Shown here in pieces: positions 7,981 through 14,577 of a stretch of DNA of 41,048 nucleotides. Below the pieces are notes generated by a model. That model was given only the letters and a program-made list of their open reading frames with translations, did not search any database and was not told where the DNA came from. Positions within the stretch are counted from its first letter, which is position 1. The number at the start of each line of letters is the position of its first letter. The DNA is taken from contig CALYAR010000102.1 of the NCBI GenBank assembly GCA_944393585.1, positions 1-41,048 of the forward strand, in the 5' to 3' direction. Position numbers and translations under genes: made by a program. The DNA is from an uncultured Clostridia bacterium (GTDB taxonomy: Bacteria > Bacillota > Clostridia > CALYAR01).

Positions 7981-8081
7981 GATTCAATCCCTCCTGATTC
8001 ATTTGTTGTCACCATTATAATTTGCTTTCAAGCCGCGGTCAATGACGGGAATGAACTTCATTTGTAAGATAATTCAAAATG

Positions 8082-8146: not shown

Positions 8147-10267
8147 TTATACGAAATAGAGAAGCCTGGTATAGTTGGGAAACGGCCAATATTCTTCAGC
8201 TGTGATTGCTTCCAGTTCATCCGCATCCCTGCGCAGATCCTCCATATCCGCTAAAATGCTTCCCTCATAAAACTTGGCCCGCCGGACAGGATCATCTATG
8301 AGCGGGGCCTGCTTCAAATCCTCTTTTAAGCCAAGGAGCTTTTGATATAGAGAATCGCTGAGAGCGGACAGTTTCGAAACGGTTTCCGTTTCATAACGGC
8401 AGGCAAAAGCAGGAGAAATCTCTCTCTTTTGCAGAAGCGTTTCAGACAGGTTTTGAATATAGCGGCTCACTGCCGGGAGGATCTCGCGCTCTGCCATATC
8501 AATGGCAGTAAGGGCCTCTATGTTTAGCGTCTTGCAGTAATTTTCCGACAAAATCTCATAGCGCGATTTTAGTTCGGCAGCCGTAAAGATATGATGCTTG
8601 GTAAAGAGCTCGATATTTTTGGGAGCGATGTAATACGCAAGCGCGTCGGCAGTGGATTTCAGATTGAGAAGCCCGCGGCGTTTTGCCTCTTCTGCCCACT
8701 CCGAAGAGTAGTTGTTCCCATTAAAGATAATCCGTTTGTGTTCTTTGATGGTGGTCCGAATCAGTTTTGCCAAATCCAGCTCAAAATTCTCGGATTGTTC
8801 CAATTGATCGGCAAACTGGGACAGCTCTTCCGCCACAATGGTATTTAAGATAATATTCGGCCCCGAAATGGATGCCGCGGAACCCACCATACGAAATTCA
8901 AATTTATTGCCGGTAAAGGCAAAAGGCGAAGTTCGGTTGCGGTCTGTCGTATCTTTGGGAAAACGAGGCAGGATATGAACGCCGACCTTCATCTCTTCCT
9001 GATCCTTCCGGCTGTATATCTCCTCCCGCTCAATGGATTCTAAGATAGCCGTGAGCTCATCGCCCAAAAACATTGAAACAATGGCCGGCGGGGCTTCGTT
9101 AGCGCCGAGACGGTGGTCGTTGGAGGCACTGGCAACCGAGACGCGCAGCAAATCCTGATATTCATCCACCGCCTTGATAACGGCCGCCAAAAAAAGCAGA
9201 AACTGCGCGTTTTCCTGAGGAGAATCTCCCGGCTCGAGCAGATTGACGCCTGTATTGGTGGAGATGGACCAGTTATTGTGCTTCCCGCTTCCATTTACCC
9301 CATCGAATGGTTTTTCGTGCAGCAGACAGGCCAAATTGTGGTGTGCGGCTACTTTTTTCATAATTTCCATTGTAAGCTGGTTATGGTCAGTTGCCAGATT
9401 CGTATCGGTATAGATGGGAGCCAGCTCATGCTGAGCAGGTGCAACTTCGTTGTGCTCTGTCTTCGCAAATACGCCCAGTTTCCACAGCTCTTCGTCCAGT
9501 TCTTTCATAAAAGCGGAAACCCGCGGCTTTAAAACGCCAAAATAGTGGTCTTCCATTTCCTGCCCTTTCGGAGGTTTTGCCCCAAACAGGGTCCTGCCGC
9601 ATAAGACCAAATCCTTTCGCCGGAGGAAGAGATCGCGGTCGATCAAAAAATATTCCTGTTCCGGCCCGACTGTAGCCGTGACACGCGTGACATCCTGATT
9701 GCCGAACAGGCGAAGAATACGCAGCGCCTGCTTGTTAATCACTTCCATCGAACGAAGCAGGGGCGTCTTTTTATCCAGCGCTTCTCCGCTGTAGGAACAA
9801 AAGACCGTGGGGATGCACAGAGTATGGTCTTTAATAAAGGCGTACGAGGAAGGATCCCAGGCGGTATAGCCGCGCGCTTCAAAGGTCGCGCGCAGGCCGC
9901 CGGACGGAAAACTGGAGGCGTCGGGCTCCCCCTTCACAAGTTCTTTCCCCCCAAATTCCATAATGACTCCGCCGTTGCCGTCCGGCGAGATGAAGCTGTC
10001 GTGTTTTTCCGCAGTGATACCGGTCATGGGCTGAAACCAGTGCGTAAAATGGGTGGCGCCTTTTTCGACAGCCCAATCTTTCATTGCATTGGCTACTGTA
10101 GCGGCGATTGACTTATCCAGATGCTTGCCCAGCTCCATAGTCCGCTTCAGCGCCTGGTACGTATCTTTGGGCAGGCGTTCCTTCATGACGTGATCGTCAA
10201 ATACCATGCTGCTGAAAATTTCTGGAATCCGGTTTGGCGATTCTTGTGTATGTTTGACTACGTTCAA
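8147..10267 (-). CDS. glnN: Glutamine synthetase type III
   Basis: A 706-residue GSIII making glutamine from glutamate, ammonia and ATP in the cytosol. The length and N-terminal block ([22 protein letters not shown]) are specific to type III. Catalytic blocks: [10 protein letters not shown], the GSIII signature [54 protein letters not shown], and [22 protein letters not shown]. The start is taken as TTG after AAAGGAG with nine-base spacing; no ATG is better placed. It follows asnA by 35 bases, so both are made from the promoter at 11634-11662 and depend on the attenuator there. A second, type I enzyme lies just upstream on the other strand. Confidence 0.95.
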
Positions 10268-10302: not shown

Positions 10303-11316
10303 TTACAGCAAAGTAATGCCCGCCTTTTCACAGGCGGTTTTGGTTGCTTCATCCCAGATGGATACCTGCACTTCGCCAATGTGAGCTTTCCCCAGCAGGA
10401 GCATACACAGACGGGATTGACCGATTCCGCCGCCAATGGTCAAAGGAAGGGTACCGTCCAGCACCATCTTATGAAAGGGAAAAGCCCTGCGGTAATCGCA
10501 GCCTGCTTCCGTGAGCTGCCGGTCCATTGCCTCACAGTCTACCCGGATTCCCATGCTGGAAACCTCAAATGCGCAGCCTAACAGCTCGTTCCAAAACACG
10601 ATATCTCCATTCAGATTCCAATCGTCGTAATCCGGAGCACGTCCGTCGTGTTTTATCCCTGACTTGAGTTTGCCTCCAATCTGCATAATGAAGGCAGTTT
10701 TGTGGTCACGGACATAAAGGTTTTCTCTTTCTTTGGGGGTTTGATCCGGATACAGATCCTCCAGCTGCTGTGTGGTAATAAAGCTGATTTCCCGTGACGG
10801 CGCATCCGGAATGGAAGGATATTGAGCTTTCAGCATTTCGGCCGTATTGCAGATGGCGTCTACAATCTTCTGAACTGTTTGTTTCAGATAAACAAAATCG
10901 CGCCGGCCTTCCGGTATGATCGCTTCCCAGTCCCATTGGTCTACATAGATGGAATGGAGGTTATCCATTTCTTCATCCCGGCGGATGGCATTCATATCGG
11001 TACAGAGGCCGGAGCCCGGCTGAAAGCCATAACGGTAAAGGGCATAGCGTTTCCATTTTGCCAGTGAATGGACAACCTGTGCTATGGTTCCGGTTTCTTT
11101 GATATCGAAGGAAACGGCCCGTTCCACATTGTTCAAATCATCATTGAGGCCGCTGTCCTGCTCAACGAAAAGCGGAGCGGAAACGCGGGTTAAGTTGAGC
11201 GCGTTTTCTAAATTTTGAATGAAATTTACTTTGATCTGGTCAATGGCCTTTTGTGTCTGTGCAAGACTCAGGCCGCCAAAAGACGTATAACCTGCTGGAA
11301 TTGTGATTTTACTCAT
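10303..11316 (-). CDS. asnA: Aspartate-ammonia ligase (ammonia-dependent asparagine synthetase)
   Basis: A 337-residue AsnA, forming asparagine from aspartate, ammonia and ATP with AMP release, on a class II aminoacyl-tRNA-synthetase fold. Recognised blocks: [77 protein letters not shown], and the motif-3-like [16 protein letters not shown]. Length is near the family's usual 330. The ATG is preceded by GAGGAAAGGGTTGAATTCGC. It is first gene of an asnA-glnN operon with a roughly 310-base leader. Together the two enzymes fix ammonia into the two amides. Confidence 0.96.
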
Positions 11317-11578: not shown

Positions 11579-11621
11579 AAAAAAAAGACACTGCAGGTAA
11601 AAACCTGCAGCGCCTTTGCTG
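11579..11621 (-). terminator. Attenuator: hexaloop hairpin overlapping an intrinsic terminator
   Basis: On the minus strand, starting six bases after the expected transcription start, is CAGC-AAAGGC-GCTG (11621-11608), a four-pair stem with a six-base loop. It has A at position 1 and G at position 4, the pattern bound by ANTAR proteins. Its 3' arm and part of its loop also form the 5' arm of the terminator GCGCTGCAGG-TTTTTA-CCTGCAGTGT (11613-11588, ten pairs with two G-U), followed by C and eight Ts (11586-11579). The two folds exclude each other. Only one hexaloop hairpin is seen, whereas the published ANTAR targets have two. Confidence 0.75.
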
Positions 11622-11633
11622 TTCTTTAACCTG

Positions 11634-11662
11634 ATTATATCGCTTCATTTTTCTTTTGTCAA
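11634..11662 (-). promoter_or_regulatory. Consensus sigma-A promoter of asnA-glnN
   Basis: TTGACA (11662-11657), 17-base spacer, TATAAT (11639-11634): an exact consensus match in both hexamers and spacing. The predicted start is near 11627. Confidence 0.88.
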
Positions 11663-11919: not shown

Positions 11920-13242
11920 ATGATGGATACCAATTCTGAACTGATCAAATTTGTAGAAGAAAACGACATCGGATTTATACGGCTGGCATTTTGCGATGTT
12001 TTTGGAACACAGAAAAATATTTCAATCATGCCCAGCGAACTGCCGCGCGCCTTAAAGCGCGGAATCTCATTCGACGCGTCCGCAGTCGGCGGATTTGCCG
12101 GAGTGGAGCGTTCTGATTTGTTCCTGGTTCCGGACTGTTCTACGGTTTCAATCCTCCCCTGGCGGCCTTCCAGCGGACGCGTAATGCGGTTATTCTGCAG
12201 CGTCAACCAACCCGATGGGAGCCCCTGCGCGGAAGACGGACGGGCAATTCTGCGCCAGGCGGTCGAGCGCGCGGCACGAATGGGATATGTATGCAAAGTT
12301 GGGCCGGAATGCGAGTTTTACCTGTTTCAAACCGATGAAAACGAATCTCCTACCCTGATCCCGATGGATCAGGGCGGTTACTGCGATATTGCGCCGCTGG
12401 ACCGGGGCGAAAACGTCCGGAGGGAAATCTGCCTTACCTTAAACGAAATGGGAATTGCGCCGGAGTGCTCGCACCACGAGCAGGGGCCGGGACAAAATGA
12501 AGTGGATTTCCGTTACTCCGATGCCTTAACGGCGGCCGACAATCTGATTACCTTTAAGTCTGTAGTCAAATCCATTGCCCTGCAGAACGGTTTTTTTGCC
12601 TCTTTTCTTCCCAAGCCTCTTTTAGACCAGAGCGGAAATGGGATGCACATTAACCTTTCGCTGTCGAAAGCGGGGAAGAATCTGTTTCAGACGGGAGGAG
12701 ATCAGCACTCGCCGGAAGCAGAGAGCTTTCTGCAGGGAATTTTAGACGTTATTTATGAGATCACGGCCTTCTTGAATCCTTTGACCAATTCCTATGCGCG
12801 TTTGGGAGCGTATGAGGCGCCGCAGTATATTACCTGGTCGCACCAAAACCGTTCACAGCTGATCCGCATCCCGGCATCCGGCGGCGAGTACAGCCGGATG
12901 GAGCTTCGCTCACCGGATCCCGCCTGCAATCCCTATCTGGTTTTTGCACTTTTGCTGCATGCCGGATTGAACGGCATTGAACGAAAACGGCCGCTGGTAC
13001 CCGCGTGCAACCTCAACTTGTATGAAGAAGAAGCCTATGTCCAAAGCAACGGAATAACCGCGCTGCCGGTCAATCTGGAAGAAGCTGTAATTGCGGCGGA
13101 ACAAAGCTCTTTTGTACGGCAGGTGCTTCCCGAGAGCCTGCTTACCCGCTATTTTCAAAAAAAGCGGGATGAAATCGCGGCGCATCAAAATTCTGGAAAT
13201 CCCCACCAGTTCGATCTGGATACGTATTTTCGGATGATATAG
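11920..13242 (+). CDS. glnA: Glutamine synthetase type I
   Basis: A 440-residue GSI, close to the length of the Firmicutes enzyme. Blocks in order: FIRLAFCDVFGTQKNI, SFDASAVGGFAGVERSDLFLVPD, GPECEFYLF (metal Glu), HHEQGPGQNEVDF, GNGMHINLSLS (the Gram-positive version with Asn after the metal His), and RMELRSPDPACNPYLVFALLLHAGLNGI. No E. coli-type adenylylation loop is recognised, so control is likely by feedback or protein contact. Two ATGs are adjacent; either fits AAGGAAGG upstream. It is cotranscribed with an ANTAR regulator 29 bases downstream and diverges from asnA-glnN. Why the genome keeps two unrelated GS types side by side is unknown. Confidence 0.95.
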   Translation: MMDTNSELIKFVEENDIGFIRLAFCDVFGTQKNISIMPSELPRALKRGISFDASAVGGFAGVERSDLFLVPDCSTVSILPWRPSSGRVMRLFCSVNQPDGSPCAEDGRAILRQAVERAARMGYVCKVGPECEFYLFQTDENESPTLIPMDQGGYCDIAPLDRGENVRREICLTLNEMGIAPECSHHEQGPGQNEVDFRYSDALTAADNLITFKSVVKSIALQNGFFASFLPKPLLDQSGNGMHINLSLSKAGKNLFQTGGDQHSPEAESFLQGILDVIYEITAFLNPLTNSYARLGAYEAPQYITWSHQNRSQLIRIPASGGEYSRMELRSPDPACNPYLVFALLLHAGLNGIERKRPLVPACNLNLYEEEAYVQSNGITALPVNLEEAVIAAEQSSFVRQVLPESLLTRYFQKKRDEIAAHQNSGNPHQFDLDTYFRMI

Positions 13243-13271: not shown

Positions 13272-13853
13272 ATGGAAAGAATACTGATCGTTTCAAGCAG
13301 CCAAAAAGCGGCTTCGGCATTTTCATCCTTTTTTATTTCCCAATCGTTTCAAAAGCCGGTCTGCGCCAAAAGCGGCGGAGAAGCCAGACGGCTGCTTGTG
13401 GACAATAAATTTGCGCTTGTATTGATTGTAACTCCTCTCTCGGATGAATTTGGAAATGATTTTGCCAAGGCCGCAGCACAGACAACAGCCGGTGTAATTT
13501 TGGTCGTCCGGACGGACATGACGGAAGCATTTACTGAAAAGACGCGCAAAGACGGTGTGCTGGTGCTTCCGTCTGCAGTCAGCCGTTCTTTGCTCCTGGG
13601 AGCAGTCAATGCCATGCTGACGGTTTACCATCGTCTGGAAGCAGTTGTTCCGCAGAAGGAAAAGCTCCAAAACAAAATTCAGGAAATCCGGATGGTCGAC
13701 CGGGCGAAATGCCTCCTGATTCAGTATTCCGGAATCAACGAACAGCAGGCCCACCGCCAAATTGAAAAAGAAGCGATGGACCGCAGAATCACCCGCGGAC
13801 AGGTTGCGCGGGAGATTATAAATGCCTTTGAGGATCCGGATGATTTGGAGTAG
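13272..13853 (+). CDS. ANTAR-domain transcription antiterminator with degenerate receiver
   Basis: A 193-residue protein. The N-terminal part (about 1-120) has a receiver-like fold but lacks the acidic pocket: the opening reads ILIVSSSQKAA where DD is usual, and the phosphoacceptor position reads LVLIVTPL. A coiled-coil linker follows (about 120-140). The C-terminal ANTAR domain (about 140-190) has VDRAKCLLIQYSGINEQQAHRQIEKEAM. ANTAR proteins bind hexaloop RNA hairpins and prevent terminator formation. Without a phosphoacceptor it is probably switched by a protein partner, as in AmiR-AmiC. Its glnA neighbour and the attenuator before asnA make amide-nitrogen control the likely job (inference). 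Confidence 0.85.
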   Translation: MERILIVSSSQKAASAFSSFFISQSFQKPVCAKSGGEARRLLVDNKFALVLIVTPLSDEFGNDFAKAAAQTTAGVILVVRTDMTEAFTEKTRKDGVLVLPSAVSRSLLLGAVNAMLTVYHRLEAVVPQKEKLQNKIQEIRMVDRAKCLLIQYSGINEQQAHRQIEKEAMDRRITRGQVAREIINAFEDPDDLE

Positions 13854-13891: not shown

Positions 13892-14577
13892 ATGTTCATT
13901 GCAGACAATATCATATCACAAAAACTGGACAATGTGTTTTTTATTGTTGGGAGTTCCTGCGCTGGAAAAACGACAGCAGCTTCGGAACTCAAAAGAAAAT
14001 ATGGTTTTTACTGCTATAGCAGTGACGCCATGCGCACCAACTGCTTCAAATTGGCGAATTATGCAAATCAGCCTGCCCTCTCCAGATATGTCCCGGATTA
14101 TGAAGCTTTAACTGTGGCGGAAGCACTGGAGTGGGAGAAAAATATTATCCGGGAGATGACCCCGATGATGATTGCAGATTTGATCGAGTTGAGCGGAAAA
14201 TATCAGACACTATAGTATTTGAAGGCGACATTGATACAGAAAGTCTTTTTCCCTTAATAAAATCCAATAAAGCCGTCTGCCTGTTAACTGGAAGAAAGCA
14301 AATTGTGCAGGATTTTTTCAAGCGTCCAGATCATGCTTTCATTCTTGAGAACATAGAGAAGAATGCCGCTCTCTCGGAAAGAGAAAAGCAACGGCGGATT
14401 TCCAAATGGAAAGAAATCATCTCCGGTGGTCAAAGGATGACTGATCCGGACTTGGAAATTCCAGACAACATATTGGAATATGGAATTAAATACTATATTC
14501 GCACAGAAGACAGTACGGTCAATGATATGATGAATATAATTGAAGAACACTTTGGATTGCCGGGTAGCAAAATTTAA
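13892..14577 (+). pseudogene. P-loop kinase/AAA-type protein split by a one-base frameshift
   Basis: The first frame (13892-14215) encodes 107 residues with a Walker A site, VGSSCAGKTTAASEL, and ends at TAG. The continuation lies one base out of phase and runs to 14577 (DTIVFEGDIDTESLFPLI... to GLPGSKI). Joining LSGKY to DTIVFEGDID gives a continuous protein of about 228 residues. The break is therefore a loss of one base near 14203-14206. The second part has no own start or ribosome site at the junction. It resembles small nucleoside/shikimate-like kinases but the substrate is unknown. A sequencing error would explain it equally well. GGAGAAAG precedes the ATG, and it follows the ANTAR gene by 38 bases. 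Confidence 0.72.

Follow-up and report, generated by a model that had tools for sequence, protein, structure and literature searches.

The DNA upstream of asnA-glnN in the window (the whole stretch of 41,048 nucleotides analysed here, from an uncultured Clostridia bacterium) probably carries a NitR-type ANTAR antitermination switch, belonging to a regulon, which uses one hexaloop at the 5' end of the RNA; we give this reading a probability of about 0.8. The element is a variant working like the dual-hexaloop antiterminators and not a member of that family, because the defining two-hairpin feature fails. The arrangement recurs upstream of nitrogen genes in many Clostridia from gut and soil.

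Promoter, hexaloop and terminator in the window

The switch and the genes around it are as follows.

11579-11662, minus strand: whole arrangement of promoter, hexaloop and overlapping terminator, upstream of asnA-glnN
11657..11662, minus strand: -35 element TTGACA, 12/12 together with the -10 element, conserved in relatives
11634..11639, minus strand: -10 element TATAAT, 17-nt spacer from the -35 element, perfect sigma-70 match
11608..11621, minus strand: single hexaloop hairpin CAGC-AAAGGC-GCTG, A1 at 11617 and G4 at 11614
11584..11617, minus strand: intrinsic terminator stem-loop, whose 5' arm includes the hexaloop along with its 3' arm
11579..11586, minus strand: T-run of the terminator, eight T, read in the sequence
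10303..11316, minus strand: asnA, aspartate-ammonia ligase, nearest gene downstream of the switch (PF03590, 335 bits)
8147..10267, minus strand: glnN, type III glutamine synthetase, GSIII (PF12437, 274 bits)
11920..13242, plus strand: glnA-type glutamine synthetase, divergent, adjoining the ANTAR gene on its upstream side
13272..13853, plus strand: ANTAR gene, proposed antiterminator with an AmiR-like pseudo-receiver (PF03861)

The earlier note on this DNA had placed a TTGACA-N17-TATAAT promoter on the minus strand, and both boxes were found at 11662-11657 and 11639-11634 with all 12 positions matching. The CAGC-AAAGGC-GCTG hexaloop with A1 and G4 was confirmed at 11621-11608, 12 nt from the -10 box. 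The same note had described a ten-pair terminator with eight Ts sharing the 3' arm of the hexaloop; the overlap and the eight Ts stood, but the fold gave 15 pairs, A-U pairs from AAA included. The two amide ligases it had named behind the switch are indeed asnA and glnN, and the ANTAR gene it had seen 1.6 kb away starts at 13272 (+). Its view that there is one hairpin only was borne out, since no second A1/G4 hairpin, even with 2-bp stems, was present in the about 100 nt upstream within the window. The Rfam comparison it had proposed returned no family above the gathering score at the element, with a chance rli40 match only.

The terminator folded at -24.5 kcal/mol (z -6.0). The hexaloop folded alone reached -4.8 kcal/mol (z -0.9) and is unremarkable by energy; the terminator thus outweighs the hairpin by about 20 kcal/mol, which counts against a model in which the hairpin is held. 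The relaxed pattern gave two matches in the genome of the window versus five in the reversed control, and because it is not enriched there, the single site by itself is not significant. The case therefore rests on the comparison with relatives. Transcription starts about 7 nt downstream of a -10 box, and the predicted 5' end of the RNA would lie at the hexaloop hairpin or a few nt from it. Between the terminator and asnA, no other promoter-like site of at least 9/12 was found on the minus strand. A near-perfect promoter (TTGACC-N17-TATAAT, 11/12) lies at window positions 8014-8042 (-), just downstream of glnN, and precedes a uroporphyrinogen-decarboxylase-like gene.

Conservation among Clostridia and the downstream genes

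The strict pattern was found in 40 of 291 Clostridia genomes versus three reversed-control matches in all, and the site is significant because of this conservation. Relatives carry the same arrangement also before asnA, and a cultured relative, Sedimentibacter saalensis (L202, L168), has the element. The covariance model of promoter and hexaloop recovered 108 genomes at E<=0.01. In the hexaloop stem, 41 cells were altered on both sides versus 17.3 in shuffles, none of 500 shuffles being as high, and slid versions of the stem had far lower covariation scores. The earlier note had staked its reading on the conservation of A1/G4 and of the alternative pairing; both proved to be conserved, with a covarying stem, an overlapping terminator and an adjacent promoter. 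The named set comprised 120 instances from other species, gene identity not being a selection criterion. The terminator sequesters the hexaloop's 3' arm in 118 of these 120 (median z -6.2), a -10 box of at least 4/6 stands in place in 111 (31/120 when shuffled), and the -10 box is 13-17 nt from A1 in 110. This 13-17 nt distance would place the hairpin at the 5' terminus of the RNA and leave a first hairpin no room.

The downstream genes were tallied from hits taken without any gene condition. For 113 named elements, the nearest downstream gene encoded GSIII (64), AmtB (18) or a glutamine amidotransferase (10), the remainder being AsnA, CTP synthase (PyrG), the CPS small subunit (CarA), GOGAT and others, and at about 100 of the 113 named loci the element lay immediately before nitrogen genes and on their strand. 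A second strong element of the window's genome (G000:C205:3458-3537, L103, minus strand) precedes purA, the adenylosuccinate synthetase gene recognised from its sequence. In its terminator, pairing involves only the 3' arm of the hairpin and the sequence beyond, and the AAAGGC loop stays unpaired outside the terminator stem; this terminator does not need AAAGGC, and the loop is therefore kept for its own sake. Back-to-back switches on opposite strands were seen at L069, L070, L071, L101/L109, L325 and L335, one before asnA or glnN and the other before a divergent gene, which at L109 encodes a glutamate-synthase-type amidotransferase.

A further search upstream of glnN accepted any A1/G4 hexaloop overlapping a terminator and required neither a promoter nor AAAGGC. 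Such elements were found in 25 of 43 ANTAR+ genomes versus 4 of 36 ANTAR- genomes (p 1.6e-5). When the 16 pairs of first and fourth loop letters were compared, AG led with 25 loci, followed by GG with 9, among which about four were true G1 variants of the same element. In the ANTAR+ genomes of L323, L327, L332 and L338, switches that are otherwise similar have G in place of A as the first loop base (gatggc, gacggc, gaaggc). Loop position 3 (A versus T) was dropped as a specificity mark, as both occurred in one genome. An upstream A1/G4 first hairpin was found in 0 of 18 promoter-adjacent switches, and the compact one-hairpin variant suggested in the earlier note holds across the regulon. At one further locus, L318, an A1/G4 hairpin does lie upstream. 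The same search recovered the classical tandem hairpins that precede eutA next to EutV and EutW (L358), so the missing first hairpin is not a failure of the method.

The ANTAR protein and its co-occurrence with the element

Presence of the R1 model and of an ANTAR gene was associated across the 291 genomes (66/10/78/137, odds 11.6, p 7e-15, phylogeny ignored). Ten genomes were R1+ at E<=1e-3 and had no detected ANTAR gene, the contigs ending near the element in two of them, and 78 ANTAR+ genomes had no R1 element, some having other loops or spacings. The element lay within 12 kb of the ANTAR gene in 27 of the 66 genomes, where about one was expected. The ANTAR gene of the window is the sole one found in its genome. 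No hexaloop-terminator was seen in the leader of glnA-ANTAR, which counts against the model. Behind the ANTAR gene, an AAA-type ATPase/kinase-like gene (window 13892-14577, +) appears to be split over two overlapping frames, which suggests a frameshift or an assembly error.

The ANTAR domain of the window protein (PF03861) scored 54.5 bits versus a curated cut-off of 27.3, and the modelled fold matches EutV 6WW6 (TM 0.75) and AmiR. In its receiver, LIVTPL replaces ILDLNM and the phospho-acceptor Asp is absent, which sets it apart from an EutV-type response regulator; AmiR is likewise a pseudo-receiver (PMC3369936). The window protein groups with the ANTAR proteins of the genomes that carry the switch in a single supported clade. 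Its members have a degenerate receiver, in which Asn usually takes the place of the acceptor Asp, and His at the position of EutV Tyr164, which the window protein also has. In the ANTAR protein of an Elusimicrobiota MAG (L181), Tyr and Asp stand instead. EutV Tyr164 stacks on G4 (PMC8934654). The His was rejected as proof of single-loop specificity, AmiR having it too; on the sequences compared, it is a mark of AmiR-like proteins. The genome of G262:C55 (L355) encodes a His164-type ANTAR protein and has no R1 model match.

Proposed mechanism, known systems and rival explanations

In the proposed mechanism, RNA polymerase would start at the consensus promoter, and the first stable RNA structure would be the 4-bp hairpin with a six-base loop at the 5' end. 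By default the 3' arm of this hairpin would be captured by the much stronger terminator, and transcription would stop at about +45, as estimated from the folds. Under nitrogen shortage, the pseudo-receiver ANTAR protein encoded beside glnA would bind the A1/G4 loop, hold the hairpin and block the terminator, and asnA-glnN would be transcribed. We infer from sequence the start site, the ANTAR protein as ligand of the hairpin and the sufficiency of one hexaloop; nitrogen limitation as the signal is suggested by the NitR precedent. Since the receiver has no phospho-acceptor, a partner protein probably exerts the control, in the way that AmiC acts on AmiR. Next to the gene of the window protein, no gene for an AmiC-like partner was recognised, and glutamine synthetase is a candidate partner by inference only.

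NitR is the closest system, and the window most likely contains a system of NitR type with one-hexaloop leaders. NitR of Clostridium saccharobutylicum (glnA-nitR-gltAB; Stutz 2007 per review PMC6316151) is an ANTAR antiterminator reported to induce GS/GOGAT genes on nitrogen limitation, and nitR of C. acetobutylicum is cited in PMC4676874. According to the same review, the ANTAR gene stands beside glnA, as in the window, and the targets serve nitrogen assimilation, but the regulon here is wider (GSIII, AmtB, AsnA, PurA, amidotransferases). The EutV/eut system (PMC3369931, PMC8934654) shares the ANTAR domain, the six-base A1/G4 loop and a hairpin that overlaps and excludes an intrinsic terminator; however, its leader has a tandem pair of hairpins at a required spacing and its receiver is phosphorylated, in contrast to one 5' hairpin and a pseudo-receiver here. 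Of the traits of the dual-hexaloop ANTAR target RNA (Ramesh 2012), the A1/G4 six-base loop and the terminator overlap were found and the P1 and P2 pair was not. AmiR-AmiC of Pseudomonas (1QO0) resembles the window protein in its pseudo-receiver-ANTAR build, the His at EutV Tyr164 and the fold, whereas the amiE leader is described as a dual hairpin (PMC3369931). In the structural work of Walshe et al. 2022 (PMC8934654), the minimal site was reduced to a single A1/G4 hexaloop, the part contacted by an ANTAR dimer, and the natural function of single sites was left as a question. The authors expected single sites where the transcribing polymerase sets no time limit, whereas the sites here overlap terminators.

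The one-hairpin model has to be weighed against eutP of E. faecalis, where both hairpins are required (PMC3369931). The dual motif is also the only experimentally established form (PMC3369931, PMC8934654), and L318 and L358 are two dual examples within the Clostridia, so a classical dual leader might be assumed, with its first hairpin supplied by longer transcripts of an upstream promoter. But the first hairpin was missing both in the window and in the 18 promoter-adjacent relatives, and its place is occupied by the -10 box, which makes a dual leader very improbable. A factor other than ANTAR, such as another RNA-binding protein, PII or GS, or a small ligand, might read the hairpin-terminator instead; ANTAR binding is only predicted, and the ten R1+ genomes without a detected ANTAR gene would fit such a reader. 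The co-occurrence and linkage with ANTAR genes, the A1/G4 preference, the single ANTAR clade and the lack of any Rfam family match argue against it, and we regard it as unlikely.

A perfect promoter followed by an immediate strong terminator would yield an abundant short RNA with an ANTAR site, and this RNA could be the main product, serving, like EutX/Rli55, as a trans-acting decoy of the ANTAR protein and not as a cis switch. The same-strand position immediately before nitrogen genes and the absence of another promoter-like site of at least 9/12 before asnA speak for the cis switch, and a decoy seems highly doubtful. That the AAAGGC arm of an ordinary terminator is flanked by complementary bases by chance was also considered, as AAAGGC..GCCTTT stems are common in terminators and the window's genome alone shows no enrichment of the relaxed pattern; this explanation is refuted by the conservation, with covariation and the dependence on ANTAR presence also against it, and its likelihood is close to nil.

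Published searches for ANTAR RNAs (PMC3369931, PMC8164766) required two hairpins. It is fairly likely that the ANTAR antitermination switch proposed here represents a widespread, so far undescribed class in Clostridia, also present in a Spirochaetaceae and a few other MAGs, in which a single hexaloop at the extreme RNA 5' end, in fixed register with the promoter, would be read by a dedicated pseudo-receiver ANTAR clade controlling ammonia assimilation and glutamine-using enzymes, one hexaloop being enough for antitermination. The natural candidates in which a single hexaloop overlaps a terminator number well over a hundred and have a defined register with the promoter, which makes the single-site question directly testable, and a nitrogen regulon (GSIII, AmtB, AsnA, GOGAT, PurF, PyrG, CarA and others) is predicted for many uncultured gut and rumen Clostridia.

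Pattern matches outside Firmicutes were seen in a Spirochaetaceae (L251), the Elusimicrobiota MAG (L181) and an Actinomycetota MAG (L148). At L251 the switch stands before GSIII and is accompanied by an ANTAR protein that falls in the same clade, a finding suggestive of horizontal transfer.
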